A stretch of DNA of 64,000 nt, taken from positions 11,607,060 to 11,671,059 of the forward strand of contig NC_049997.1 of the NCBI RefSeq assembly GCF_000003815.2, written 5' to 3'. The translations under genes were made by a program, and so were the position numbers. Under the pieces are notes generated by a model. It did no database searches. It was not told the origin of the DNA and saw only the letters and a list, made by a program, of their open reading frames with translations. Positions 10,334 to 61,800 of this stretch are shown one piece after another (the first letter of the stretch is position 1; every line of letters begins with the position of its first letter). This stretch comes from Branchiostoma floridae (lineage: Eukaryota; Chordata; Leptocardii; Amphioxiformes; Branchiostomatidae).

Positions 10334-12125
10334 GAAGAACTGCAATAACCTTTTTTTAAAGCAGGTTTGAGTTTTCAAGGCTTGTAAAGCTCATGTAGCC
10401 TGGGTACCATCCTCCATTGAAACCTCTGGTTCAATATTTTTTCTTGCTAATTTTGTTAGCAACCAGGCTGAAGCTCTTGTACACCACTGTATACAAAAGT
10501 CAAAGCATGATAGGGAGCCCTAGTTTGCTACTTGTAAAAGATTTCCAGTGCTGTTACTTGCAATACAAGTTTTGTAATTACATACTATTTGCACTGTACT
10601 TGTATGTAAATTCTTAAAGCACTGAATATTCACTGAAATGCAAAAATTTAGGGACATTTTTTTCTATTTGTTCTAGAATATGAAACTAAAAAAAGCTTGT
10701 CAACAATAATGATTTGTCTGATTTTCCTATGGGGCAGCAGTATTGTACAATGTTGTTACCATTTCCCTGGTTTTATAGTCCAGGAAAGGTATACTATAAA
10801 TGGGAGAATTTGTGCTGCACATAATAAATTATGCACTGATGTACAAAGTAGACTCAAATTTGACATTGCTTTTGCTATATATTCACTTACTTCAATGTAT
10901 GATTTGTTTACAATGATAAAGTGGATTATAATGATTACACAGTAAACATGATACAGCTTTACTTTTTACTGATTAGAACATACAATACATGATATATGAA
11001 CACTGAAGGCACTTGATAACTCAAATCACACAACAATCACTTTACACATTGAATTTCATCCTCATATTTGTTAGCATAAAAAATATTTTTTAGTTACAAA
11101 ACGTTGTAGACTTTATTGACAAGTTCTACACTCAGGTAGATGTTTGGTTCTATCAAATTTTCTACATCTCCATGATAATGTTATGGGAAAGATGGCCCAT
11201 CGTTCAAATGTCTATTTTGTTACTTATTAATCATGCACTTTACAGTATTGATAGTTTAGAGACATTGCAAAATGTTTGCAGAATATGTCTGTTTCTCATG
11301 ACTTTATTGAAAAGAGCCTGAGCGACAACTTCATTCAAAGTGTTCAAAACATAAAACAAAGTAGCATACCTAAGATATAACTTCAAATACTTAGACGTAC
11401 CTATGGTTGTTAAAGTTGTACAGTTGTCTACATTGCTGCTACATATCACTGTTCATCATATACCACTATTACCAGTAAAGTTTTGAATAAAACATTGGCA
11501 AAAACAATCTGAAATGAAGAACGCACCCCTCAAACCATGTCCTCCGGATTTATATATAATCAATACAAACTACACAAAGCTTCATAGCTTTTCTGTAAAG
11601 CCCTCTTAGCCAGCCAGACTGTAAAATCACCATACCTACTTTCCTAGTTTTTGTATACTAAATCTTATCACAAGTATACACAATTAAAAACACTTGCAGC
11701 TGACAATCTTGCTTGACATTGTAACTAAATGTACTTTTGATATGTTGCATAGACATTAGCAAATGACAGCCAATTCTAGGTGATGCTACAAATATTCATG
11801 TACCCTTTTCCTGGTATGAGTCTGGTGACCTTTCATAACAAGATTTGGGTCATACACATTGAAATGAATTATGCAATTTTCTATTAAATGCATTTTGTAC
11901 ATGAATGGATCTAATTCTGTGACACATTTGTTACAGCTTGGTTCAACAATTGACAGTTGCATAGTTCCTATCCAAAGATTAAAACATAAAATGGCACCAT
12001 TTTGCTATTTTGACATACATTGTACATGAATTTCTGTTTTTCAAATTATCATAGTTGACTGCAGTATACATGTGGCAACAGGCATATAGAAAAATATTGG
12101 GTTGGCTTGAGTGTTTTTCCCAGTG
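10334..12125. other. 3' flank shared by convergent CCDC34 and nuclear receptor
   Basis: No coding sequence is recognised here. For CCDC34, AATAAA at 10823-10828 is a plausible poly(A) signal about 0.5 kb after the stop. For the receptor on the other strand, TTTATT at 11303-11308 and 11112-11117 (AATAAA on the minus strand) would end its transcript beyond the helix-12 array, which would put the array in the 3' UTR. GCCTGGGTACCATCC at 10399 is a lone end of the element family seen at 19317. Confidence 0.5.
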
Positions 12126-12959
12126 ATGCCATTGGCCAATCAGTGTTACAGAAGATCCCATAGTTCAACCAATAGGGGAGTCAACTTGAAGTTTCTTGTC
12201 TTCATATAGGCTTTTTACATCTGTGTTACTGAATGTCCCATAGCTTAGCCAATAGTGGTGTCAGTTTGAAGTTTGTAGGTTTTTTACATCAGTGTTACCA
12301 AATGTCCCATAGTTCAACCAATAGGGAAGTCAACTTGAAGTTTCTTGTCTTCATATAGGCTTTACATCAGTGTTACTGAATGTCCCATAGGTCAGCCGAC
12401 AGTGGTGTCAGCTTGAAGTTTGTCTACTAGGTTTTTTTACATCGGTGTTACTGAATGTCCCATAGCTCAGCCAATAGGGGTGTCAGCTTGAAGTTTCTTG
12501 TTTCCATATAGGATTTGTACACCAGTGTTACTGAATGTCCCATAGTTCAACCAATAGGGGAGTCAACTTTCAAGTTTCTTGTCTTTATATGGGCTTTTTA
12601 TATCAGTGTTACTGAATGTCCCATAGCTCAGCCAATAGTGGTGTACGCTTGAAGTTTGTACGTTTTTTACATCAGTGTTACCAATGTCCCATAGCTTAGC
12701 CAATAGGGGTGTCAGTTTGAAGTTTCTTGTTTTCATATAGGCTTCAAAGTTTTTACATCAGTGTTACTGAATGTCCTATAGCTCAGCCAATAGGGGTGTC
12801 AACTTGAAGTTTGTAGGTTTTGTGCGTCAGTGTTACCGAATGTCCCATAGCTCAGCCAATTGGGCTGTCAACTCGAAGTATTTTTTTGTTTTCATATAGG
12901 ATTTGTACACCAGTGTTACTGAATGTCCCATAGCTCAGCCAATAGGGGTGTCAACTTGA

Positions 12960-13607
12960 GGTATCGGACCGGAGTTTCTTTTACGATTTCGGAGGTTGGC
13001 GGGCAGCCTCAGGCCGAAGGGCTACAGTTCCGCTAGTAAACGTAGGACGCGAAACTTAATCAATATGGCGGAAAGCCGTTTACTGTCTCTTTCCGACAAA
13101 CCCATTGGTACCGTCTGTTGCCTCTTTATTTTGGTTAGAATATGTAGTAAAATTTTAATTTTGGACCCGAAAACTATCATTTTTTAACACTTTTTTGATC
13201 GAAGCTGCTTGGAAAAAACGAATTTTCCCAGGATAATGGCCTACGTGGTAGAGAAGCTAAATTCTTCATGTTTGTGTAAAATGAAAATAAAAAAATTCCA
13301 TGTGATAACTTTTTTGCAATCTCCGATGACGTCATTTCTTCGAAATCGCATGAAAAACGCCGCTATTTGGGTCATCAGGCGAAAAAACCGCATCACCGTT
13401 GCAGCGGACTAATACAAAAATGGTTTCGCTGGCCGACCAACTACTCCTCGCACAAAAACAATACAACCCACGGGCTTTTCAGAAAATACGACAAATCTAT
13501 GCTCAGCTATAACGATCACCAAGCCATAGGGAGCAAGAGTTAGGGAGACAACAGCGCACTTCCGGCCTATTACACCACCCTTCCGCCAACTCCGGTCAGA
13601 TTTGAAC
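12960..13607. repeat. Left 648-bp direct repeat
   Basis: This block is repeated at 14746-15393 at a constant offset of 1,786 bp. By eye the two differ at one base (13103 C versus 14889 T). Such high identity points to a recent duplication or conversion. The blocks do not start TG or end CA, so they do not look like retroviral LTRs. Confidence 0.85.
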
Positions 13608-14745
13608 CTTAAGAGGGACATTTTTTCTCAATATGTATTTTTATTACTTAAAAAGTTCATATCTACCATATATCCAAATTTGGTTTGTCTCCGATGGTTA
13701 CTTTTCCCACAGGAGCGGTTTAAAGTCAGGTCAAAAACACTGTATTTTGAGGCTATCAAGCCTAGATGCATATTGAACCTACGTTATAATACAGAAACAT
13801 TAAAAAACATGCTTTTTTCTGACATCGCTTTTCTGAAAACGGATAAAATGGGGTGCAAAGTCTGCCCATATACTTGTCCGGGAAAGTATGTGCACTGTCC
13901 GTCGTTTCGGTGCTACACATCGGTAGAAAACCGTCTTTAAAAGTTGGCATCGCTGACGTCACGGAGTGACGTCAGAGGTTGCTCAAGGAAAACAGCAGGG
14001 GGTCGCGTTTTAAGTTCGTCGCTTGTAAGTAAAATGAAGAATGTGCCAGATTTTGACATGGAGCAGTAGACCAGATCTCACACTTTCAGAATCAAACGCG
14101 TCCGACACCAAACTCTTAACTACTTCGCCGTGAACGGCCCCTTAAGAAGCACAATGCGCCCCAAATGTGTGCAAGAATGCATTCTTACACAGTGCAAAGC
14201 ACAAACTGGATCTTATTGTCGGCGCTAGAAGCGGGCAGTTGGAATAAGCGCGGCAAAGATGTGTAGTGCTTTTAATAGGCTATTACTACATACCACCGAA
14301 AGAAAAAAAGATCGCCGCGTTAATGAGCTATGAACCGAAAGTCAGTAAACCCAGTTTCTCCTTAAGTTAGGGCTTAAAGCACCAAGATTTCAGCTTTAAT
14401 GCCCATTTAAGTCATACTAATGCACGGCATCGCGAACATATGCGATAGGTGAACGACAGAGGTCGGCTCCAATCAAATGACGTAGAGAAAGATATGATTT
14501 TGGAAAATTCTGCCCGCCAGAATCGATTAAAGTTGCCCGTAATGGTAGTTCTAAGGGGGGGGGGGGGTGAAAAAGGGGGAGGGGGGCGCCTAGGGACTGT
14601 ACATGAATATGCTGACTTTTTAACTAGAAAAATGAAAAACGGTGTTTGTTTTTACACAATATAACGACATCTGATGGAAACTTTAAAATGCGTCGAAATT
14701 ACGTCATCTATGACGTCATATAAGGTACAAGCGCCGCCCTATTAG

Positions 14746-15393
14746 GGTATCGGACCGGAGTTTCTTTTACGATTTCGGAGGTTGGCGGGCAGCCTCAGGC
14801 CGAAGGGCTACAGTTCCGCTAGTAAACGTAGGACGCGAAACTTAATCAATATGGCGGAAAGCCGTTTACTGTCTCTTTCCGACAAACCTATTGGTACCGT
14901 CTGTTGCCTCTTTATTTTGGTTAGAATATGTAGTAAAATTTTAATTTTGGACCCGAAAACTATCATTTTTTAACACTTTTTTGATCGAAGCTGCTTGGAA
15001 AAAACGAATTTTCCCAGGATAATGGCCTACGTGGTAGAGAAGCTAAATTCTTCATGTTTGTGTAAAATGAAAATAAAAAAATTCCATGTGATAACTTTTT
15101 TGCAATCTCCGATGACGTCATTTCTTCGAAATCGCATGAAAAACGCCGCTATTTGGGTCATCAGGCGAAAAAACCGCATCACCGTTGCAGCGGACTAATA
15201 CAAAAATGGTTTCGCTGGCCGACCAACTACTCCTCGCACAAAAACAATACAACCCACGGGCTTTTCAGAAAATACGACAAATCTATGCTCAGCTATAACG
15301 ATCACCAAGCCATAGGGAGCAAGAGTTAGGGAGACAACAGCGCACTTCCGGCCTATTACACCACCCTTCCGCCAACTCCGGTCAGATTTGAAC
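14746..15393. repeat. Right 648-bp direct repeat
   Basis: This is the second copy of 12960-13607. Here the block is followed by 14 further bases (TCCGACCCGGAACC) that complete the element's 3' inverted terminus. The left copy instead runs into the 1.1-kb spacer at 13608-14745. That spacer has a G-rich tract near 14554-14587 and no recognised gene. Confidence 0.85.
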
Positions 15394-15518
15394 TCCGACC
15401 CGGAACCTTGAAGTTTGTAGGTTTTGTGCGTCAGTGTTACCGAATGTCCTATAGCTCAGCCAATTGGGCTGTCAACTCGAGGTTTTTTTTGTTTTCATAT
15501 AGGATTTGTACACCAGTG

Positions 15519-18500
15519 TTACTGAATGTCCCATAGCTCAGCCAATAGGGGTGTCAGCTTGAAGTTTCTTGTTTTCATATAGGCCTCATGCATCTCTCCC
15601 AGTGATCGCAGTTCCGTCAGCCTGGCTGTGATCTTTGCAAAGATGTTGGGTTTGGAGTAGTTGAGGCTGCAGTAGGTCTGTAAGGTGTTGATGTAAGGCT
15701 CCTGGGCTTTCTCGATGACATGGTAGTTCTTGATCAACGGTCGGTCTGAAAATACAGAAATTCATGTTCAACTTGCTGAATATTTTCATCAGGTTCGTAG
15801 ACCATTCACTGGCTATTAACGTTCAAATGATTTGTATTTATATAGCCGGTGTAACCATGCAGCGTAACACATCAGCTTTGCAGGCATGCAGCACAGCAGC
15901 AGCTGGTTATATCACACTTAACAACCTGTCACACATCTAACTTTTGTATATCTGACAGAAAAAGAAAAAAATTAATGTTCTTTAAAGCTATCTAGCAAAG
16001 ATGCTCCTACTGTACTGGATGGCAACAATGATGAGGGGGGATACAAGCTTAGTCATGTTTGGGACTGCATTCTTACCACTGCAGCGCCACCTACCAGTGG
16101 GAAGTAGATTGCCATTAGTAAATTCATTTATTTTCATGGGTACTCAATCTTGCAGTGAGGGCTTAATCCTTTGGCTGATCAAGCTACAGGACTGGTGAGG
16201 TGAGGTGAGGAAAAAAAACTTTTTCTTAAAGGTTTAAGCCATACTTGAAGTTCACAGGTGAAACAATTCTTTAGTCTATAGCAGAAAAAAACACATATTT
16301 GCAAAATTATGATTTCACAGTAACAGGTCATCACGAAAATGAAACTACCCTCAACATTTCAAGATTTTTAGTAGCAGAAGGACTACCAAAATATAGTTCT
16401 TGACTGAGTACAGGGAAGATTCTCTTACCTGGTGACAAAAGGACCACAGCAACAAGGAGTGCATAGGTGTTGTCATCCAAGTTCAGCTCTTGCATCTTGA
16501 AGTAGAACTCCTTGAAGGATTCTATCAACTCAGGTTTACCACCTGTACAAACAAGAAGATATGGTCAGGCACAGAAAAATGTATGAGAAAGTCTTTCAAC
16601 ACAAAGATTGCACTTTTTGACCAGTCTTTATTTGGATAATTGGTCATGAGGATTTTATTGCTAAAAACAGGTTCCCTTCTGTAAGTGACATTTGCAACAA
16701 GTAAAAAATGACTGATATAAACTTTGGTGACCCCAAACTTTGCATTGCAACATTTCCATAATACAATCTTACAAACATTGATTAACTTTCATGCAAGGTG
16801 GAAAAGCAGGAAAATGTGTTAACCATGGTTTACTGTGTTATCTATTTACTATTACAAACATTAATTTCGAGCAACATCTCATTGCAATGTTGTTTTTTTG
16901 TATCAACATGTCTTATGTTCGTAGCAATTGATCTGAAAAACAAATTAATAAATTTTCAACTCTAGAAATGTTAAGATTTGATTAGTATTACATGTGGAAC
17001 TTAGGAAAGCTCATAGCTAGATGCACATTATGTTAGGTAAGGACTGAAGATAAAAATACAATGTAGATAAAAAATATATGAATTTTAAGAACAATAGGTC
17101 AGGGCTCGAAATACCACATGTATATGGAAGTTTGTGTATGTACATTGTGAAGTTGTGTGCAAGTTTGTTTTATCCACTATTACCTGATATTAGAAAAAAA
17201 GCTTACACACCAAGAATATTGTTTGTTCTTGAAAGGTAAAAGAAAATAACCCTGATTTAAAATAAATAAATAAATTTGTTCATTGAGGTTAGACATCCAG
17301 GTAAACAATATTTAAAGACAATTCCATCTGTTTAATGCTAATGATGGTGTTGACTTACCTTGATTTGCATATGACTCACATTTGCATACAGGCTAGTGAA
17401 TTTGATATGTTCCACTGGTTTTCCAGTTATATGTACTTGTATTGAGTTGTTCTACCACTTCATTCTAGGGATGTATAAGAATAGTGATGGATGTCAGTCA
17501 AAGTGTCCAGAAGAAATCTATGAATCTCATCAAGTTGTAGACACTGAATTGTCTTTAAATATGCCTAAATTCACTTCTTTATGAAACTGTTTGTACAATT
17601 TAAAATCAAAAATAAAATGTGCTATTGAAAAACAAATATCCAAACATGTGGTCTTCATGTATCCCCGTTTACTCACATTTTGCATATCTTCAGAAGAGGA
17701 CATTAACAGTCCAACATTTTAGGTTGTGTAAGTAAGTTTCTTTTGGTGCAAGTGACTTTTGGTTCAACTTGCACTGGTGTATTTCGAGCCCTGTAGGTTA
17801 ATGAGGAAATGTGTTTTGTTAGAGGTAAATGATACTCACAGAGTCACTCTTCTCAGTACATGTAATAGACTAAGTCTGTTCAGTTCTTAGCTTAACCTTT
17901 AATTCTTAGCACACTGAAGCAGGGTTGTAGCCAGCCCGAAGTCATTTTCCGTCCCCTCGACTTTGAATGGCAGCGTTCCTAGGGGGTTCCCGGGGGCATG
18001 GTCCCAAGGAAAATTTTGAAATATAGACCCCCTGAAACACTTATTTCCTGAATTTTGAGGGTTAAATTTTGCTCACAGAGGACGGAATGGGCAAAAATTT
18101 TTTCTGTCCCCAGCTGCAAAATTCTGTCAAAGGACGGAAAGACAGGTGCTGGCTACAACCCTGCACTGAAGTAACAGTGCACAACCTGGGGCCTCCCACA
18201 TGTACAAGACACAGGGCTCCAACGTCGTCTCCAAAGCACGATCCGATCGCCAAACTTACCTAAGTGATCGCCAAACTTACCGAAGTGTTTATACGGTAGG
18301 CCGGGAAGCACCCTTCTGTAGCGCCAAGAACACCTCACCACCAGAAGGGCCTCTACAGATGCACCCTGTTTGCAGAATAAGATGGGTAAACAAGGTGCAG
18401 GGAAGGCCTGGGTTACCGGTACCTTCCAACCCTGCACTGCAGAGCCCCCTATGGTGTGTGTGTAGTACTGCAGGCTATTGACTTACCACTATGAAGATAC

Positions 18501-21500
18501 ATTGCCCCACGACCTCCATGAATCTCTGGCCTCTCGAACGCTTTGTGCCAGCAGGACAGACTAAGAATGGCTTCAAATGTTCCAGCCTGGGGGATTAAGC
18601 CAGTCTATTAGGTTGATTATCTGGTACATTACAAATTACAAATTAGGAATTATTTGGTACATTACTAGGCACTTTTGGTACATGTATTGTATTGATTGAG
18701 GAGAATTCAAGTTCAGAGATACAAGACTGAAAAATGTGGGGAATAGGAGTGGGTACAATGTACCAGTACAAAACCGTGAACTGGTCCTTAAAAACCTGAC
18801 CTGAAAAAAATCAACAAATGGGATCTTGGACCGATTAGAAAATGACCAGATTATATCGGCAGGCTTTCACACGTTTTGGGGCTTGTCAGTCTAAGAAAAT
18901 ACCAAGAGCGAAGTGGAGTCCAGTTTATAGTCATTTGTACAGTCAAACTTAGCATTATTTACATGAAGTAGGATTTTAGATTCCTTAGTGAAATGGACCA
19001 TTGTGTTTCAAGTATCGCCCATTTACAAAACGTACAACTTTTCTCAGACAATCAGGTCCAGACCAGGACCTGATTCTTTGGACCTGAACCGAACCTGGAC
19101 CTGAATCTTCGGTACCAGTACCCACACCTAATGGGGAATTGTATACCCAAAGGACCATTACTGTAATACTGCCCCTACCCGATGGCGGTAGCATCTGTCT
19201 AAACAACAAGTTATTTTCTCAAATACATGTTTTGGCCTGGGTACCATCCTGGTCAGTTTATTTCTGTCGGCCAATAGTTGCTACCAACCATTTCTACATT
19301 GTAGGCAGTGAGGCTATAACCTGGGTACCATCCGGATAGTAGTTCGCTCCTATGTTCGCTTCTGCTATACATCTGGAGACTTGTGCATTCAAACCGTTTG
19401 GTGGTAACGTCAGTTAATGAGCGAATCAAGGAATGGGTTCTAGAGCGCTCGTTCGAGGACAACAGGCCGGCGCCCACATGCGCTAGAAGACGTGGGACTT
19501 TTCCAGTGTTGGGACACCGGTTCGAACGATCACTTGAACCCATTCCATAATTTGCTCATTATCTAACCATGGATAGTGGACGGATAGTGAATCAGCGCCT
19601 GCATCCAAAATTTGGACGATTCCAGACGTTAATATGGTCCACATTCCCAGACGGAAACACAGAGAAGCGGCTGTATATACTTTATAATGAAAGTCGTAGC
19701 GAACTACTTTTTGGATGGTACCCAGGCTAGTGAGGCTAAGCATGCTAAGGAAATACATAGCGTGCAAATATGAAGCAGAAATAAATACAATGCAGCATAT
19801 TGTTACGGTATTAATGTGTAGCAATACATTGTATAACAAAAGCAACAACTAGACAAGAAATCCTATTTCTAAGTATCTTCATTTTGTCTTGCTTCTTCTA
19901 CGGTTTCTATGTTTACCATAATGGCAAGTTAATTCTACCACATACATGTTGGGTAAGGATATTCTAAATATGTTAGACTAAACTTACTATGCATCAACGG
20001 ATCAGAGTATTTCGTTGTACGTCAAACTTTTTCAAACAAAATGAAATAAACAAGGTAAACTAAAATCCCACAAAACTACAGTCAAACCTGTATTAGCGGC
20101 CACCTTTGCATACCGGCCACCTGGCCATAGTGGCCACTTTTTGTCGGTCTCTTCAGACAATATCAACTGTAGAACATTTAAAACTTTTATTCAACTTTTG
20201 TTTTCTTAATACATATAGTGTAACAATCATTGCAGTACATGTACAGTGCTACACACAAGCTCCTTGATTATAGTTGTGAATAAAGATCAATTGTAACTAA
20301 AACCATGTGTAACATTTTGCTTGTGGTCAATCAATCAGCATTTTCTCCATAGCGGCCACCTCTCTATAGTGGCCAATTTTGACCAGTCCCTTGAGTGGCC
20401 GCTAGACAGGTTTGACTGTATGAGGAAATGACCTAAATTATACCTTTTTTTAGACCATGACACTACATATACTAACCTTGAGAATTGCTATTTGATCTTC
20501 CTCGCTGAAGGTCATGAAGCCTTCGAGGCACTTGGCAAACTGGACGAGTCTCTCAACCATCAGCGTCACTTTCTCCTGGAACAGAGCCCTCCTCTCCTCT
20601 ACAGTGGGCAGTTCCATCATTCTCTCATACATACCCTGTATGTACAAGAAAAAATCATATTGATCTGGCTTAACTCATTAAAGAGCTAGTCTACCACTGG
20701 TCGTGATAGAGAAGACTTAAAGTGGAGTATATAGTCAAGTCCGTTTGAGGTGCGTATGAAGCTCTTAGTCTCTACCAGGCTCCACAGGTCGTGGGAAAAA
20801 TAGTACAAATTGGACAACATAACATGTCAGATAAGTTAGCTGACCAAGAAGTATGGTTAGCGACCCAGCTAACTCGTCTGACATGTTACCTGTTTACGTT
20901 TGTCCAATTTCTATTATTTTTACAACGACCTGTGGAGCCTGGTGGAGGTAAATACTCCCATGCGCACCTCATACGGACTTAAATATATACGCAGGTGTGA
21001 CCCCACCTTTACACTATGTACAGTATTTACAGGTTCATCGTAGAGTGGAAATTCCCCTAGATCTTTTCGACATGCACAATGAACAGTGGATCACAGCTCA
21101 ACATCCCGTCTGCAACCCTTTCCAGTAGCGTGTATGCCGGGTGATCGACACAGCTGGAATTTGAACTCACAGCTTCTAGTTTCTGAGGCAGTACCGCTAA
21201 CCACTGGACTTATCCAGTATTTATCCTATAAATACTGTCATAATAACTTTAAAAAAAACAGCCTGGCAGTTTTGTACGCATCTGCTTTTTGGGTCTTCAA
21301 CAATAGAGAAAGACTCAAATATATGGTACACTGAACCCAAATACTTGTATATACAACACAATGATACACAATCTTTCCACTAGTTATACCTACTACCGGT
21401 ATGCTAAATTTATCACCTAGACCACCTTTTTTTGGATTTAACAAGAATAACCACAAATTTGAATAGTCAAATTTGTCAATAGTGGCCACTCAAGACTTGA

Positions 21501-24500
21501 AAACAATGGTTATATCAGACAGGTGGTCACTATAGACAGGATCCTTACTGCTGGGGTAAAGGAGGAAAATAATGTAAGGGACTCAGTATGTTCATTGATG
21601 CTCCTACCTCATGACAGTGCATCAACCCTGGCATAAACTTTTCCTTAGCCTCTCTGCAAGCTGTCAGTAACCTGTGTTGCTCAGTGGTCAGTGTTACTGA
21701 AGGTGCTGAGCTGGTTGGCTGTTCAATATGACTGACAACTGAAGGGAATCCCTGATTGGACGAGGGAATTTGCAACATGCTCTCATTGGTTGGGAAGGCA
21801 GCTGGTGAGCTTGGATCGGTTGGAAAGGCAGCTGGTGAGCTCTGATCACTCGAAAAGAACCCCGAAGAAGGTGAACCCTGATTGGTCAAAAAGGTAGGTG
21901 GCGAGTCCTGATTGGTCAGAAAGGTAGATGGTGAGTCCTGATTGGTCAGATAAGTTGATGGTGAGTCCTGATTGGTCAGATAAGCAGATGGTGAGTCCTG
22001 ATTGGTGGGTGACATCTTGTGCTGGGTTGTAGGAGGAGCTGGCTCGTCATCACCTTGTTTTTTCCTTCTCCAGAGAAATTTTGACTGAATCTGGACATTG
22101 GTAAGGAGACCTGGAAGAAAACAAAACCGCATAATGAGGAAAAACTACAGTTAGAATTTGCCAAAGCAATTACTCAAGCAACTGGATATGATTTTGGAAA
22201 CAGTCAGACGTTTCAGGAAGAATCCACTACCTTCATCGGTGACACCTGGATGTCTAACACTTCATTGACGTACAGTTAGAATTTCCTACCGTTTTGAATC
22301 ATAACTATACTCAGTTCAAATTTCCTACACTATAAAACTACATACTTCCTATGCTAAGCTTTCCCATGATCAGTAAATAAAGAATTAAGAACTATGTCAT
22401 TCTGTAAACTACAGACAAGCATTACCTTATCAAATACAGGGCTCGAAATTCATTTTTGGGATTAGGTGCACTGGTGCACCCAGCTTAAAAAAAAACTTTG
22501 GGTGCACCACTTAAATTTGAGTAGAATGACAGAAAAGCCTAGTAACAAAATTTAGTTACATGCTATCAAAGTCTTAAACAAGTATCATGATAAACATTTT
22601 TATTATCTTTCTAACACCCAGATGTGAAGAATGTGATGTATACTAGTATACTTTGATATCTTTACATACATAAACCTATGTAAATATTTGGGTGCGCCCA
22701 GCCGTCTGTGCACCCACTGAAAATAATTGGGTGCACAGCTCCAATTTTGGGTCACCCAGTATTTCGAGCCCTGCAATTCCAGAGCAAGTAGGCAATAAGG
22801 TTCTACAAGATTTTACAGTGGTGTAAAATGTATAGATTCCTTGGTCGGAAGTCCTCCTATGAGACGGAAACTCCAAATAATAAACCTGCATCTGCTGGGG
22901 CCATCTTACACATGGCATACAGTTCTTGTCCCTGTAGTGCGCCAGTAGACGAGAGGGTGGAGAAGGAAGTGCACACCCCTCCTTCACCTTGAAAAAAATC
23001 ACGTGCAGGCCAGGCAGACGAGTCGCCCAAACCCACCCTGCCCACTGATCTTCAGATACAAAGAAACAACCATCATCATCATCATCAAAATGTATAGAAA
23101 CTGATGCTTACATTCAGATTTCATGCCAGCTTCCTTACACTTCCTGAGGCGACACTCCTGGCACTTCCTGCGCATGTAGGTGTCTATCTCACACTTCCCG
23201 CCATACTTGCACTTGTAGTTGGCATTGCGCTGGATACTTCTCCTGAAAAAACCTACAAAACAAAGCAGGTAGGTTTATCATTTTTCTTCCAAGTATATCT
23301 TTCGAACACTCAGTGATCATTGATATTGTTTTCACAGGATATATGGTTGTAAATGTACTTTGATTTTGACTTTCTGTAAATGTACTCTTAAAAGAGTAAA
23401 GCAAGATACATCCTTGTTTAGCATGTATTGTTACTTGACAGTTTTAAAATGCACTGATTCTGGGTTGATACATTTGTAAAAATCAAGGAGATTGATAAAA
23501 GCTCCTTGTAAAAATGTACTCATGTCTCTGTCTTCCAAATCTTTCATCATGACTTGTGAACACAAATGCTCCTTTTGAAGGGAATACATTCAACTGATAA
23601 CTGTGCATATATATCAAATGTGATGTAGAGATATCAACATTTTGATATAGAAATATCAGTAGCACCTATAACGGGGGAGGCTCTAAGATGCTACGCTTTT
23701 TTACGCGCTCGAACTCATGGCGCTCCATTTACCTTTCTAATCATCAAAGTAAGTGGCAACAAATACGGCGCACTTATGCATAATAAGATCAGCAAAAAAT
23801 CCGTGGCATCTTAGGGCAGGGAGCATCTTAGGGCAGCCCCCGTTACATAGGGAAGTACAGTTCTGTAGATTGTAGGTTACCTTTGCAGCCCTCACAGCTG
23901 AGTGCTCCATAGTGAAACCCTGAAGCCTTGTCTCCACACACTACACATGCTGTTGGGTCCACTGGAGCAACACTCTCCACCTATTATGCAAGCAATAGAA
24001 GAGATACATGAAGTAAGAAACACAGCGGTAAAGGAAAGGCAGAATTTATTTTCTCTGCATATCATATTATCAGCCTTGTTGGGCCCACTGATCGTTAGGA
24101 GTGGCCTCAAAGCTAGCAACCAGGCTAGCCTGAGTACCATCCACCATAGTGACCGCTGGCTCACCCGTGGTTAGCAAGCGAAAGTATTGAGACAGCGGCC
24201 ACTATGGAGGATGGTACTCAGGCTACCTTCAGGCAGCATATTGTAAGCTTTGAAAGATAACAAACCAGCCACTAAGCTGAAAACCTCACTTTTATACATA
24301 TTATATATATATGCAGTGTATTCAATCACTGTTGTTGTAAAATCTTTCTCAAGTACTGAGGGTAACTTCACAAAATCAGCAAATGCTCTTGAAGTGACGA
24401 CAAACAAAAAATCGCTTTCTTCAATTTGACTTTGTTCAATTACGAAAAGACATTTCTAGAAGGCTATGACTGATATTTACATACCTGAGGTTTTTCCATC

Positions 24501-24631
24501 TTACTGTCGAATATCTTGTCAAAGATGTCAGAAGTGAAGGGTTCACAGTCAAAAGGCGTCGCAGCTGGGTCCATATCCAACATGCTGCTCACGATGGAAT
24601 CGATAGACAGTTCTCGTGTTAGGCTCGCCAT
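15519..24631 (-). CDS. FXR-like nuclear receptor (NR1H group)
   Basis: This is a ligand-regulated transcription factor of the FXR/LXR/EcR group. Eight coding exons (24485-24631, 23881-23980, 23112-23252, 21608-22110, 20477-20635, 18487-18586, 16429-16542, 15519-15745) join in phase to 497 codons including the stop. The first zinc finger has [18 protein letters not shown] with P-box CEGCKG. The second has [19 protein letters not shown] and [11 protein letters not shown], followed by [13 protein letters not shown] as in FXR. The hinge (exon 4) has serial TNQDSPS repeats. The ligand-binding domain has [43 protein letters not shown] and AF-2 helix [12 protein letters not shown], close to the FXR/EcR TPLLCEIWDVQ. 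A 5' UTR exon ends at 27660, so the first intron is about 3 kb. The paralogue identity within NR1H is not resolved. Confidence 0.92.
16013..16106 (+). mobile_element. Penelope-like element relic
   Basis: The stretch GATGAGGGGGGATACAAGC through GTTTGGGACTGC and GCGCCACCTACC translates in part as [13 protein letters not shown]. This is the same C-terminal block as the Penelope-like copy near 63.4 kb. It is a fragment of about 95 bp in a receptor intron. Confidence 0.65.
17100..17793. mobile_element. CAGGGCTCGAAAT-family element, copy 3
   Basis: The termini are CAGGGCTCGAAAT and ATTTCGAGCCCTG, perfect inverted repeats of 13 nt. TAGGT flanks both sides (left 17095-17099, right from 17794), a likely 5-bp target duplication. 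This copy is about 694 bp, longer than the other two. Its interior has diverged. No protein is seen. Confidence 0.7.
17920..18163. mobile_element. hAT-like MITE with 8-bp target duplication
   Basis: The element is 244 bp with termini CAGGGTTGTAGCCAGC and the exact reverse complement GCTGGCTACAACCCTG. The 8-mer CACTGAAG is present on both sides (17912-17919 and 18164-18171). CAGGG ends with an 8-bp duplication are typical of hAT. It lies in the receptor intron between exons 6 and 7. Confidence 0.82.
18744..19130. mobile_element. hAT-like inverted-repeat element
   Basis: The left end TAGGAGTGGGTACAATGTACC is mirrored by the right end GGTACCAGTACCCACACCTA. The 8-bp flanks GTGGGGAA and ATGGGGAA match at 7 of 8. 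TAG-type ends with 8-bp duplications fit hAT. It is 387 bp with no coding capacity. The window's first 35 bases look like the end of a relative. Confidence 0.65.
19317..19728. mobile_element. Inverted-repeat element with 10-bp flanking duplication
   Basis: The left end has CCTGGGTACCATCCGGATAG and the right end CTTTTTGGATGGTACCCAGG. The arms continue with AGTTCGCT and AGCGAACT. AGTGAGGCTA stands immediately outside both ends (19307-19316 and 19729-19738). A duplication of about 10 bp fits a Mutator-like origin, but no transposase supports this. A shorter relative is at 24126-24227, with lone ends at 10399 and 19232. Confidence 0.65.
20079..20418. mobile_element. mariner/Tc1-type MITE
   Basis: The element is 340 bp, flanked by TA on both sides. 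The termini CAGTCAAACCTGTATTAGCG and the mirrored CGCTAGACAGGTTTGACTG extend about 25 nt with one small gap. Internal copies of AGCGGCCACC/TGGCCACT repeat several times. The TA duplication supports Tc1/mariner. A diverged piece (AGTGGCCACTC) lies near 21480. Confidence 0.8.
20727..20990. mobile_element. Foldback element
   Basis: The arms are long and imperfect. AAGTCCGTTTGAGGTGCG near 20737 mirrors CGCACCTCATACGGACTT ending at 20980. ACCAGGCTCCACAGGTCGT mirrors ACGACCTGTGGAGCCTGGT. ACATGTCAGATAAG mirrors CGTCTGACATGT. Almost the whole unit can form one hairpin. It is non-coding. Confidence 0.7.
21061..21225 (-). repeat. tRNA-derived SINE
   Basis: Read on the minus strand, it has A-box-like TGGTTAGCGGTACTG, then B-box-like GAGTTCAAATTCC at tRNA spacing, then a unique body with CACCCGGCATACACGC. 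No amino-acid-acceptor end was checked, so a functional tRNA is unlikely. Confidence 0.65.
22437..22773. mobile_element. CAGGGCTCGAAAT-family element, copy 2
   Basis: The element is 337 bp with ends CAGGGCTCGAAAT and ATTTCGAGCCCTG. The interior is closely similar to copy 1 at 297-652 (shared GTGCACTGGTGCACCCAGC and AATAATTGGGTGCACAGCTC). It lies in a receptor intron. Confidence 0.75.
23669..23846. mobile_element. Small MITE in receptor intron
   Basis: TAACGGGGGAGGCTCTAAGATGC at the left mirrors GCATCTTAGGGCAGCCCCCGTTA at the right, with one short insertion. It is about 178 bp, non-coding, with ends close to receptor exon 2. Confidence 0.65.
24126..24227. mobile_element. Short GTACCATCC-ended foldback
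   Basis: AGCCTGAGTACCATCCACCATAGTG mirrors CACTATGG...GGATGGTACTCAGGCT around a core of about 50 bp. The ends resemble the larger element at 19317-19728, so this may be a deletion derivative. Confidence 0.6.
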
Positions 24632-30482: not shown

Positions 30483-33287
30483 TTATGTCCTATAAGCATA
30501 TAATAGATAGCCTTCGCCATTTTGTAACCGTTCTATGCACTCCATAGGCCTCTCATCCCCCAGCGCTCTCCATGCTAAAGCAATGCTGTACAGTGATGCA
30601 GTGATTTCTGGGTGTGCCTTGTTGTCTCCATAGATTGTTGTCCGCATTGTTAGCGCCTGTTCAAAGTAGCTAATGGCTTTATTCTGATCACCTAGTTTAC
30701 TCCAATAGGATCCCAGGGTCTGAAGTGACTTGGCAATGTCCGGATGTGCCGTGTTGTCTCCATAGAAAGATTTGCTCATTGATAGTGACTGTTCATAGTA
30801 CCTGAGAGCTCTCTTCTTATCTCCAAGCTCACTTAAAGATGTTCCCATATTGAGAAGTGACTGAGCAATGTCCGGATGCGCCGTATTTCCGTAGATTGTT
30901 TTCCTCATGGTCAATGACTGTTCAAAATAGTTTATTGCTTTCCTCTTGTCGCCGAGTTGATAAAAACAGGCTCCAATGTTGCTAAGTAGCATGGCGATGC
31001 TGGGATGTGCCGTGTTGTCCCCCCCATGGATAATTTTCTCCATCACTAGTGACTGCTCAAAATAACTCATTGCTTTCTTTAGATCACCAAGCACATTCCA
31101 GGATGAGCCTAGAGCATTAAGTGTCCTAGCAATGTCAGGATGTGCCGTGTTGTTTCCAAATATAAATTTCCATATTCTTAGTGATTGATCGCAGTAGTGG
31201 ATGGCTTTCTTCTGATCGCCGAGTTCACCCCAAGATCTTCCCAGATTGTAAAGAGAATTGGCAATGTCCGGATGAGCATTGTTATCTCCATACATAGTTT
31301 TCCCCATCGCTAGTGACTGTTCGCAGTAGTTAATTGCTTGCACCTGATTGCCAAGTCTACTCCAGTGTCCTCCCAGAGTGGTAAGTGACGCGACAATGTC
31401 GGGATGTGCCGTATTTTCGCCGTATATGGATTTCCTCATCGCTAGGGACTGCTCTAAGTAACTCATTGCTTTCTTCGGATCACCGACGTCAAACCAAGAT
31501 GCCCCTAGGCTGTGAAGTGATTGTGCAATGTCCGGATGTGCAGCATTGTCTCCATAGATACTTTTAACCATCATTAGTGATCGCTCGTAGTAACTGTTTG
31601 CTTTGTGGTGATGACCTAGTATTTTCCAGGATGACCCCAAATTGAGAAGAGACCCATGAATGTCTGGATGTGCCATGTTGTCTCCATAGATAGTTCTCCT
31701 CATAGATAGTGACTGTTCATAGTAGTGGATTGCTTTCTTCTGGTCGCAAAGTTCATACCAAGAGGTTCCAAGGCTGGCAAGTGCCTGGGCAATGTAGGGA
31801 TGTGCCGTGTTGTCTCCATAGATAATTTTCATCATCATTAGTGACTGTTCGACGTAGCTAATTGCTCTTCTGTAATAGGTAAGTATACTCCAAAATGATC
31901 CCAGGTTAAGAAGTGACAAGGCAATGTGCGGATGCGCTGTGTTTTCTCCATAGATAGATTTCCTTATCGCCATTGACCGTTCCTGGTAGTTAATTGCTTT
32001 CATTTGATTGCCCAGTCTAGACCAACATAATGATAGGTTGGATAGTACATTGGCAATGTCTGAACGTGGCGCCGTGTTGTCGCCATCGATGGTTTCTATC
32101 AGTTTTAGTGATCGTTCGAAGTAGCTAATTGCTTTGTGCTGATCTCCGAGTCGGATCCAAGATGCTCCAAGACTGTGGAGTAATTGGACAGAGAGTACAT
32201 TAATCATGCTTTTTCCGTGCAAGCCTTTATCCATCTTTAATGCTTCTTCATAGTAGTTTATGGCCTTTTTATCATCATTGTTCTCAGTCCAGGACTTGCC
32301 TAATTCGTAAAGTACCAAAGGACGTTCAACGTCTCCCACCTCGTTTAATGCAGCCTCCAAATGGCAAATGGATTTATCTGGCAAGAAAAGGTTTCTAGCT
32401 ATTCGTCCTTGACAAAGATTGGAGGTATCAAAGATGTTTAGTTGGGATACAATTCCCGGTTGGTCCGGCGTATTGTTTTTTATCGCCGTAAGTATACACT
32501 TCTTCAAAGGGACGGCCCTGGAGTAGTATCGAAACAGAACTCTTGTGTCCGGAATGTGGAATATAGACTTCAATGTGTTTTCAGAAATCTCAGCCTCTTT
32601 TGGGTGACAGCTCGAGCTCATTTTGGCGAGAGGGGACAGATTGTCTTTCTGGCCTCCATTGGCATTATATGTTCTTAGTCGGAGCTCTGCAGAGATGCTG
32701 GTCAGTATCATTAGGTGGGCGGCATCTTCTTCGTCAATCCGTTGCAACCTCGTCAGTTCATCGATGATACTCCATGCACTGGCATGCATAGTGCCATAGC
32801 ACAGAGCTAGTACTTCTATGGCTATATCTGGAAAACGATAGATGTCTTTCTTAACATTTAGCAGTTGCCCAGTGGTGGGTTCGCGAGTGAAAAACTGGTC
32901 GCTGTTCTCATTCACGAGTTGTTGGATGGTAGAAAGGCTGGATTGAGAGTGCGAGAGGGTATGGCCTGTGGTGGTTTCTATGAGTGTTGTGACATACTCG
33001 TTCACCAGCCCTTTTTCCTGAGTTAGGAAAACAACACGCTTGAGGATATCTGCCAAGTGATATCCTTCTGACAAAGAAATGTTCAACTGCTGAAACTTTG
33101 CCAGATTAACAGGAGTCTGGATGAGACTAACAGAAGCTTTTGTTTTGGTCTTGTCTCTTCCAAAGGGAGTCTTATTAGCCCAAGGCATGACGCCGTCGAA
33201 GGCAAATCCACGAGGCGGGACAGAATCAAAGAACCGGTCTTTCTCTGGGTCATCGGACTGAAAGTCGTTGAGTGACAGGATGGCCAT
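30483..33287 (-). CDS. TPR-repeat protein, 934 residues, intronless
   Basis: This is one uninterrupted frame. Residues up to about 330 form a non-repeat N-terminal region with conserved-looking blocks ([55 protein letters not shown]). About 14 tetratricopeptide repeats follow, mostly 44 residues apart, on the pattern HPDIAxSLxxLGxSW..LGDxKKAIxYYEQSLxMRKxIYGDNTA. This longer spacing is that of kinesin-light-chain/NPHP3-type TPRs. TPR arrays bind peptide ligands or partner proteins. No enzyme domain lies in this frame. Directly upstream, in another frame, is a nucleotidyltransferase-like piece (33320-33439), so the gene may be a 5'-damaged member of an NTase-TPR family or may start at this ATG. 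The function is unknown. Confidence 0.8.
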
Positions 33288-58800: not shown

Positions 58801-61800
58801 TGCCATGCTATAAAAAGTAAGCATGCAACAATAATGCTTGGTTGTGCTTCATCAAAGCTAACCCTTCCAGCAAAGCATGATGCAGACTCACTACATTCAA
58901 CTTGGTAATGAAAGCTGCCATGCTCAGGAAACCTTAACTTTCAAATTTCACTAGTTGCAAACTACATGTAAGCAGCAAAAACTACAGCACACAGGTCTGG
59001 GAAGTCTATTTCTCCTATATCATAGTGATTTTGCAACAAATCTAAGTGCACATAGACATACTTCACCCATGCAACAAATCATACTGGCAATGCAACATGC
59101 AACCAGAAAAAAGTTCACGATTTACAGCAACAAACATGTACGTGTACCATACTCAGTAAATAATTTCACCAGGTTGGTAAAATTACTATATGTGTCTATT
59201 GAGTTCTGGATAGTACATAGTTCTACGTAGATACACAATATCTAGTAAAGAACTCAACGTACAGCATAGTATAATGTTGAAAAAAGACTAATTTAGAATT
59301 TGAGAACAAAACTGTTCTGTCTGAACATCAAAATCAGCATCATCTCAGGGTCTTTGAGTTCCTAAAAAAGTAGTCCCAATATCAGTACTGATTTCAGACA
59401 GCATTATCTTGTAAAATCGAGTAAAAAAACGATATCATGTTTACCTGCATCCAAAGAGGGGTCCTTACTGTCCATGTGCAGCAGGTTGGACTTCCCTAGC
59501 GAGGCAGCATTCTCCACCTTCTTGGCCCAGGACATTACATCCAGGGGAGAGGTCTCCTCAAAATCCATCTCATCTGAGGAGCTAAAAACAACCACAGAAA
59601 ACATTGTCAATGATACGTCGATGAAAATCAAAAATCATTCCAAAATCATATCTAGTTGCTTGAGCAACTGCCTTTTGGCAAAGTTGTCATAACTTTTTGA
59701 AACAGTTTTTAAATAAAATTTTGCCTCAAAAAAACTAGATGAAAATTGGTCTGAAATTACCCTGAGTACAATTCTTCAAATAGTCTTAGTTGTACAAAAT
59801 GCATTACATTCCTGACTTCTATCCGCAATACCTTAAGAGTGCTTCCTGGAATCAAATAGTTTTAGTTATGATGCTACATTTCTGACTTCTATCTGCAACA
59901 CCTTCTAGCAGTGCCTCCTGGCAGAGCATAGGAGTACTGCAGCCTCTTGTTCAGACACCAGACACCAAGAGAAATCTTCCAGCACACACACTGATGCTGA
60001 GACTCACCTGGAGCTCTCATAGTCCTCCTCATCCTCTAGCCCGGCCGTCTGGATCAGGTTGTGTTCCGTGAGCGTCTCCTCGGGGATCAGGCCCTGAGTC
60101 TCGTAGATCGTCTTCCTGTAGTTCTCAAGCTCCACGCGCTCTGGGGTGGCGCGGTACCTCTTCTGGACGGGCTCTGTGTTCATACCCAAGAAATATGTCA
60201 TTTTTGCATGATGTACCCGTGTTTCTACCATTTAGAAAGTTTACCACCACAAAACAATACCTCTTCTGTACTGTCTCTGTGTTCATACCAAAGAAATATG
60301 TCATTTTTGCATGATGTACCTGTGTTTCTACCATTTAGAAAGTTTACCACCACAAAACGGTACCTCTTCTGGACAGGCTCTGTGTTCATACCCAAGAAAT
60401 ATGTCATTTTCGTATGATGTACCTGTGCTTCTACCATTTAGAAAGTTTACCACCACAAATCGGTACCTCTTCTGTACTGTCTCTGTGTTCACACCGAAGG
60501 AAATGTCATAACACAGTTTTGTATGATATACCTGTGTTTTTACCATACAACGAAAGTTAACCACAAAAAATTTCATAACATCACTTTTGTATAATGTATC
60601 TGTGATTCTACCATATAAAGAAAGTTTACCACCACAAAAATTGTAACAGCAACAATCCAACATCCTAATCAGGTATTGGGATTTTCAACAGCGGGAGCAG
60701 AGTAGGTTCCAATCATTTGATGGCAGCCCGTGTGATACAACTTTAAATCGTGTGTGAAACAGCTTTTTATCACCCAGTCTGGATCACCTCATACCAAATG
60801 TTATTACAGCCCAGGTATGACATAGAAGCAGGTAAAACAAGTGTGAAAGAGCTCCCTACCCCCTGATGGTGGACTCAGTAGTTTGTCTTCCAGACTGGCT
60901 CTTCTGGCTGGTTCCTCAACTTCAGTTGGGATGTTCTCCTGTAACACATGATGGTGACATTGGTTACTTCCCTGATACGTTTATATATGTTTGTCTGTGT
61001 TTACACAAATAGGACTTAAAGTAGCCATACCTGTCCCTAGGACTGAATATAACATCCATACAACCAGTCCAGTCCCTGGTGCTGAACATAATATCCATAC
61101 GACTAGTCATGGTGCTGAAATTACATCCATACTTAAGTACCATCTCAGTGCTGAAGTTTTGTCTCTGGTGCTGACCACAACATCCACACAAGCACTCCTG
61201 TCTCTGGTGCTGAAAATAACATCCACACAACCGGACCTGTCCCTGGTACTGAATATAACACCCACACAACCAGACCTGTCCCTGGTGCTGAATATAACAT
61301 CCACACAAGTAGACCTGTCCCTGGTGCTGAATATAACATTCACACAACCAGACCTGTCCCTGGTGCTGAATATAACATCCATCCAGTCAGTCCTGTCCCT
61401 GGTGCTGAATATAACATCCACACAAGTAGACCTGTCCCTGGTGCTGAATATAACATTCACACAACCAGACCTGTCCTTGGTGCTGGACAGAACATTAATA
61501 CACGTTCTATCAATAATGCAATTGAGCATTTTACAAGTAGTATTGAAGAATCTTGACTTGTATTTTTACAACTGTCCTTTCATTCAATAGCTATTTAAGT
61601 AATTACAGAGTACATGTACATATACCTCTTGTATTTGACAGTTGATTTTGAATTATCTCTTAATCACATTTCTAAAGGCTTGGGAAAACTCTATGTCTTT
61701 TTCATGAAATGACGGTACTTTTATTTCAAACATACCTTTTCCTCTTCATCCTCGTCATCATCCCCAGCAGGGCGTTTTCTCTTCTGCATCCTGAAGTGAG

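Follow-up and report, generated by a model that had tools for sequence, protein, structure and literature searches.

We found that a nuclear receptor gene of Branchiostoma floridae ends in a tandem array of 13 units with a common helix block, namely the true end of the gene (U1) and 12 extra units (U2 to U13). The gene-end repeat is confirmed. When 15600-15515 (86 nt, the last 82 of the gene and 4 beyond) was used as BLAST query against the window, i.e. the whole 64-kb stretch of DNA analysed, all 13 units were recovered at E 8.3e-18 or better, and the next matches came only at E 0.56, which excludes chance for the 13 units. The original prediction, that the receptor's last codons and stop codon had been amplified in tandem, is thus borne out. 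The array is, in all likelihood, an inert, neutrally drifting minisatellite founded on the terminal part of the last coding exon, with U1 as the only selected unit.

The protein encoded by the gene matches the NCBI B. floridae entry 'bile acid receptor-like isoform X2' at 100% over 496 aa, and Pfam recognizes its zf-C4 (PF00105) and Hormone_recep (PF00104) domains. Against PDB, the whole protein gave LXR beta as the top match, with multi-domain chains of RAR and PPAR gamma next, and at E 1e-30 the 22 matches of the ligand domain (LBD) alone were all bile acid receptors. By the Pfam, PDB and NCBI protein matches taken together, the gene encodes an NR1H receptor, with a C4 zinc-finger DBD and an LBD nearest to FXR/LXR. 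Cephalochordates have 10 NR1H receptors according to a review (PMC7827873); our literature search (titles and abstract openings) found no paper on the amphioxus receptor of this locus. A 30-bp coding repeat lies in the hinge (21866-22006, minus strand), a region whose length varies among five Branchiostoma proteins. In the protein of a floridae x japonicum hybrid (P0002), about 325 additional N-terminal residues are fused to the receptor (upstream of 24631); no Pfam family matched them, and they represent either a fused gene model or a real longer form.

One LBD segment has two alternative exons, 18586-18487 and 18365-18281 (minus strand), in a region that extends over 18260-18586. Inclusion of both (18365-18281 as the 85-bp form) or of neither would shift the frame, and therefore the two look mutually exclusive as judged from the DNA. 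The B. lanceolatum proteins P0003 and P0005 differ at this segment, and the hybrid P0002 carries the second version. The two versions score much alike against the bile acid receptor LBD (best 113.6 bits with the first exon and 115.5 bits with the second), and with the other exon in place all 28 PDB matches at E 1e-30 were again bile acid receptors. No paper on mutually exclusive exons in nuclear-receptor LBDs was found in the literature search. These exons may be of more interest than the helix-12 array itself.

The positions of the gene, the units and the neighboring features are listed in Table 1.

Table 1 Receptor gene, helix-12 array and associated features in the 64-kb window
Feature	Position	Strand	Remark
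NR1H-type (bile acid receptor-like) gene	15519..24631	minus	8 coding exons, GT-AG introns, 496-aa open frame
Coding exons of the receptor gene	24631-24485, 23980-23881, 23252-23112, 22110-21608, 20635-20477, 18586-18487, 16542-16429, 15745-15519	minus	
U1, true terminal unit	15600-15516	minus	
U2, first extra unit	15515-15434	minus	Long, TAG inside helix; directly after U1
U3, first 27 nt	15433-15407	minus	Separated from remainder by insert
Non-coding insert inside U3	12960..15406	minus	2,447-2,448 bp
U3, remainder	12959-12913	minus	
U4	12912-12830	minus	
U5	12829-12761	minus	
U6	12760-12675	minus	
U7	12674-12606	minus	
U8	12605-12525	minus	
U9	12524-12445	minus	
U10	12444-12370	minus	
U11	12369-12292	minus	
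U12	12291-12223	minus	
U13	12222-12143	minus	
AATAAA signals downstream of array, outside insert	11112..11308	minus	Starts at 11308 and 11117

About 13 downstream copies had been claimed; the amplification stands, but the extra units number 12, and 13 is reached only with U1. Likewise, what adjoins the gene is only U2 with 27 nt of U3; the DNA that follows is the insert, and the remaining units lie beyond it. The extra units come in two lengths, a long type of 78-86 nt (seven units: U2, U4, U6, U8, U9, U11 and U13) and a short type of 69-75 nt (five units: U5, U7, U10, U12 and, with the insert removed, U3). The repeat periods called in the array were 69, 68, 149 and 236. The five short units group as a single clade (FastTree support 0.958), the pattern that one deletion would leave. 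The dimers U2U3 and U4U5 share 97.4% identity, compared with 81.6-85.3% for the other pairs of complete dimers.

The helix codons are open to the stop in 9 of the 12 extra units (U3, U4 and U7 to U13), in agreement with the predicted minimum of seven, though U8 has a stop just upstream of its open helix. In U2 and U5, TGG has become TAG within the helix, and the helix of U6 is frameshifted by a 1-nt deletion. The AF-2 glutamate was correctly said to have changed to K or D in some copies: it is K in U12 and in the frameshifted U6, and D in U10. Over the 14 residues, the translations of U9 and of the empty-site U3 do not differ from that of U1.

The insert that splits U3 carries direct repeats of 648 bp (14746-15393 and 12960-13607) that are 99.846% identical. 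It is flanked by a target-site duplication of 4-5 bp, TCAA(G), and has imperfect inverted ends (GGTNNCGGNNCGGAG, 11 of 15 positions alike as judged by eye). When it is excised, U3 becomes a 69-nt unit one base off U5. The frame 13021-14700, one of six, matched no Pfam family at E 0.1, and there is no second copy of the insert within the 64-kb window. These features suggest a recent non-autonomous mobile element.

We compared 14 helix codons in the 12 extra copies with their consensus; with so few codons, related copies and changes counted against a consensus, the test has small power. There were 25 distinct base changes (46 when totalled per copy), of which, each taken singly, 16 change an amino acid, 2 create a stop and 7 are synonymous. 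Neutral simulation gave 7.1 +/- 1.8 synonymous changes, and the 25 changes are spread over the three codon positions as 8:8:9. An omega of 0.3 was rejected (P 0.0045), and 0.5 was borderline (P 0.05). A codon-substitution test on the copies had been proposed, and its outcome matches neutral drift. Stops occur in 3 of 12 copies against 2.3 expected under neutral simulation, and the AF-2 core (14 codons free of stop and frameshift) is intact in 5 of 12 against a neutral expectation of 5.5. The helix is not significantly spared relative to the linker within either class of unit: variable columns were 15/47 in the helix and 11/30 in the linker of long units (P 0.81), and 10/48 and 7/21 in short units (P 0.36), where the linker diverges more, but not significantly so (p-distances: linker 0.162, helix 0.092). 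When all extra units are pooled, the linker is clearly more divergent than the helix (0.260 vs 0.132), a figure that mixes long and short linkers. We thus obtained no sign of purifying selection on the extra helices, at a power that is low for any single unit; one functional unit, e.g. U9 or U3 at the empty site, could hide within a neutral set. The WDLL of U13, with the L of B. lanceolatum and B. belcheri, was considered as a date for the array and dropped, a single site being too little.

We then turned to the receptor's C-termini and splice sites. The close relatives of the protein, sought among the best 120 of 3137 matches listed and again with residues 386-496 of P0001 as a second query (5 found), were the same five in both searches. 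They represent 17 clustered sequences and come from B. floridae, the floridae x japonicum hybrid, B. lanceolatum (two) and B. belcheri. With just the last exon as protein query, no candidate came up. All five Branchiostoma representatives end in a canonical helix 12, and their last 12 residues vary only by I/L. Splice sites were scored in the units and exons by generic weight matrices. In the gene itself, true donors range over 7.1-11.0 and true acceptors over 5.0-12.7. The best donor-like score in the units is 3.3, below the weakest true donor, and the best acceptor-like score is 4.2, below the weakest true acceptor by a narrow margin. Inside the exon 15519-15745, no donor-like site scores at least 2. 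Under these generic matrices, applied to the units and exons, we found no usable acceptor before each helix paired with an upstream-exon donor, as alternative AF-2 exons would need.

Amphioxus is known for mirages, which are minisatellite-like tandem duplications spanning exon-intron boundaries; two reports describe them in Adh3, in two globins (BflGb6 and BflGb9) and in troponin C, and PGBD5 has repeats of a similar sort (PMC3087553, PMC3902484). According to these reports, the number of copies varies among BflGb6 haplotypes, Adh3 shows somatic instability and the mirages leave regular splicing undisturbed, although the globin paper adds that splicing could draw on cryptic sites within the repeats (PMC3087553, PMC3902484). 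The helix-12 array resembles them as a minisatellite-like tandem duplication, in an amphioxus gene, of a short piece across the edge of a coding segment, and in its units not being all identical (81-100% in BflGb6, by the same reports). Unlike the published ones at exon-intron boundaries, its unit covers the last codons, the stop and 3′ UTR and contains no splice site, no unit splice signal equals the gene's own, and the array is split by a putative mobile element. Since the unit does not span a splice boundary, we call the array a variant with mirage-like behavior. The original prediction knew of no described case. That is so for a helix-12 array in a nuclear receptor, of which our literature search (titles and abstract openings) found no description, but not for tandem duplication at a coding boundary in amphioxus, which the two reports describe (PMC3087553, PMC3902484). 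Elsewhere in the receptor gene, the second alternative LBD exon has a 21-bp tandem duplication that spans its donor (18245-18287, minus strand); the duplication provides two strong donors, scoring 8.8 and 11.0, 21 nt apart and in frame, and looks like a mirage in the published sense. Other tandem arrays lie at 30613-32151, 60152-60642 and 61160-61485, with periods of 132, 103, 68 and 39 bp.

We infer the mechanism of amplification, the order of events and the transcription of the array as 3′ UTR as follows. A founding tandem duplication would have taken in some 20 terminal codons together with the stop and about 15 nt of 3′ UTR. One copy would then have lost about 11 bp, giving the short type, and long-short dimers may have spread through unequal exchange or replication slippage. 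U1 alone would be under selection, because translation ends there, and the remaining units would be drifting 3′ UTR or downstream DNA. Later, the non-autonomous mobile element would have inserted into U3. Among the three alternatives that had been offered, the inert 3′-end satellite is the one that fits. The process would be ordinary, though the place is striking; the case for a functional reading is weak, and the array as a bank of working helices does not hold up.

Could the array act on the gene by recombination? Unequal crossing-over or gene conversion of U1 with the downstream long units would then sometimes swap the AF-2 helix and alter or abolish activation, a scenario that we regard as unlikely. 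The 48-nt helix block of U9 is identical to that of U1, whereas the 24 compared nt upstream of it in U1 are nearest to U6 (1 difference, against 4 for U9), which makes U1 a mosaic. In addition, U4, U9, U11 and U13 retain an in-frame stretch ahead of the helix (YMKTRNF-like), and exchange within that stretch would keep the frame open; published mirages are variable in length and somatically unstable. However, the mosaic is also expected if a selected U1 holds the ancestral state and the copies drift, and the near-uniform C-termini of the five representatives also speak against such exchange. Gene conversion with the true helix may account for the block shared by U9 and U1, and shared ancestry explains it as well. 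A stronger form, with contraction or conversion of U1 with U4, U9, U11 and U13 repeatedly replacing the AF-2 helix, so that B. floridae populations or somatic cells hold alleles with differing helices, appears distinctly improbable.

A 3′ UTR regulatory array, in which repeated RNA structures or protein sites tune mRNA stability, has little probability in our judgment. The array occupies the position where a 3′ UTR is expected, and the next AATAAA outside the insert is at 11308; this signal and that at 11117 mark a possible candidate 3′ end of the pre-insertion transcript. The distal array (821 nt) folds better than its shuffles (z -1.96; equalled by 0 of 20), and may have a structural role in the 3′ UTR, or the folding signal may come from the repeats alone. 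On the other side, helix and linker drift alike within long units, and the AATAAA signals within the insert (14916, 13645 and 13130), met earlier, could sever most of U3-U13 from the mRNA. Neither Rfam at gathering threshold nor ARAGORN gave a match in the whole window.

That splicing uses the downstream units as alternative C-terminal exons with variant AF-2 helices is hardly credible: an open helix and stop are kept in most units, but stops and intact cores occur as often as drift predicts, the last coding exon offers no donor-like site scoring at least 2, the unit sites fall below the gene's weakest true ones, and canonical C-termini alone appear in the five representatives, so the alternative C-termini by splicing that had been proposed gain no support. 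Nuclear receptors with alternative C-termini, e.g. TR alpha 2, use spliced alternative exons; helix 12/AF-2 is involved in both cases, but spliced exons are unsupported for the helix-12 array.

Minisatellites in 3′ UTRs form a general class, to which the array, preferably read as an inert minisatellite, is similar in being tandem non-coding DNA that follows a stop codon. Unlike that class, its unit contains the final codons and the stop, and therefore its origin and register are known. The helix-12 array extends the amphioxus mirages from splice boundaries to the stop-codon boundary, which suggests that amplification needs no splice signals. Such an array, lying beside an essential helix, would allow a natural test for any return of variation from boundary minisatellites to the coding end.
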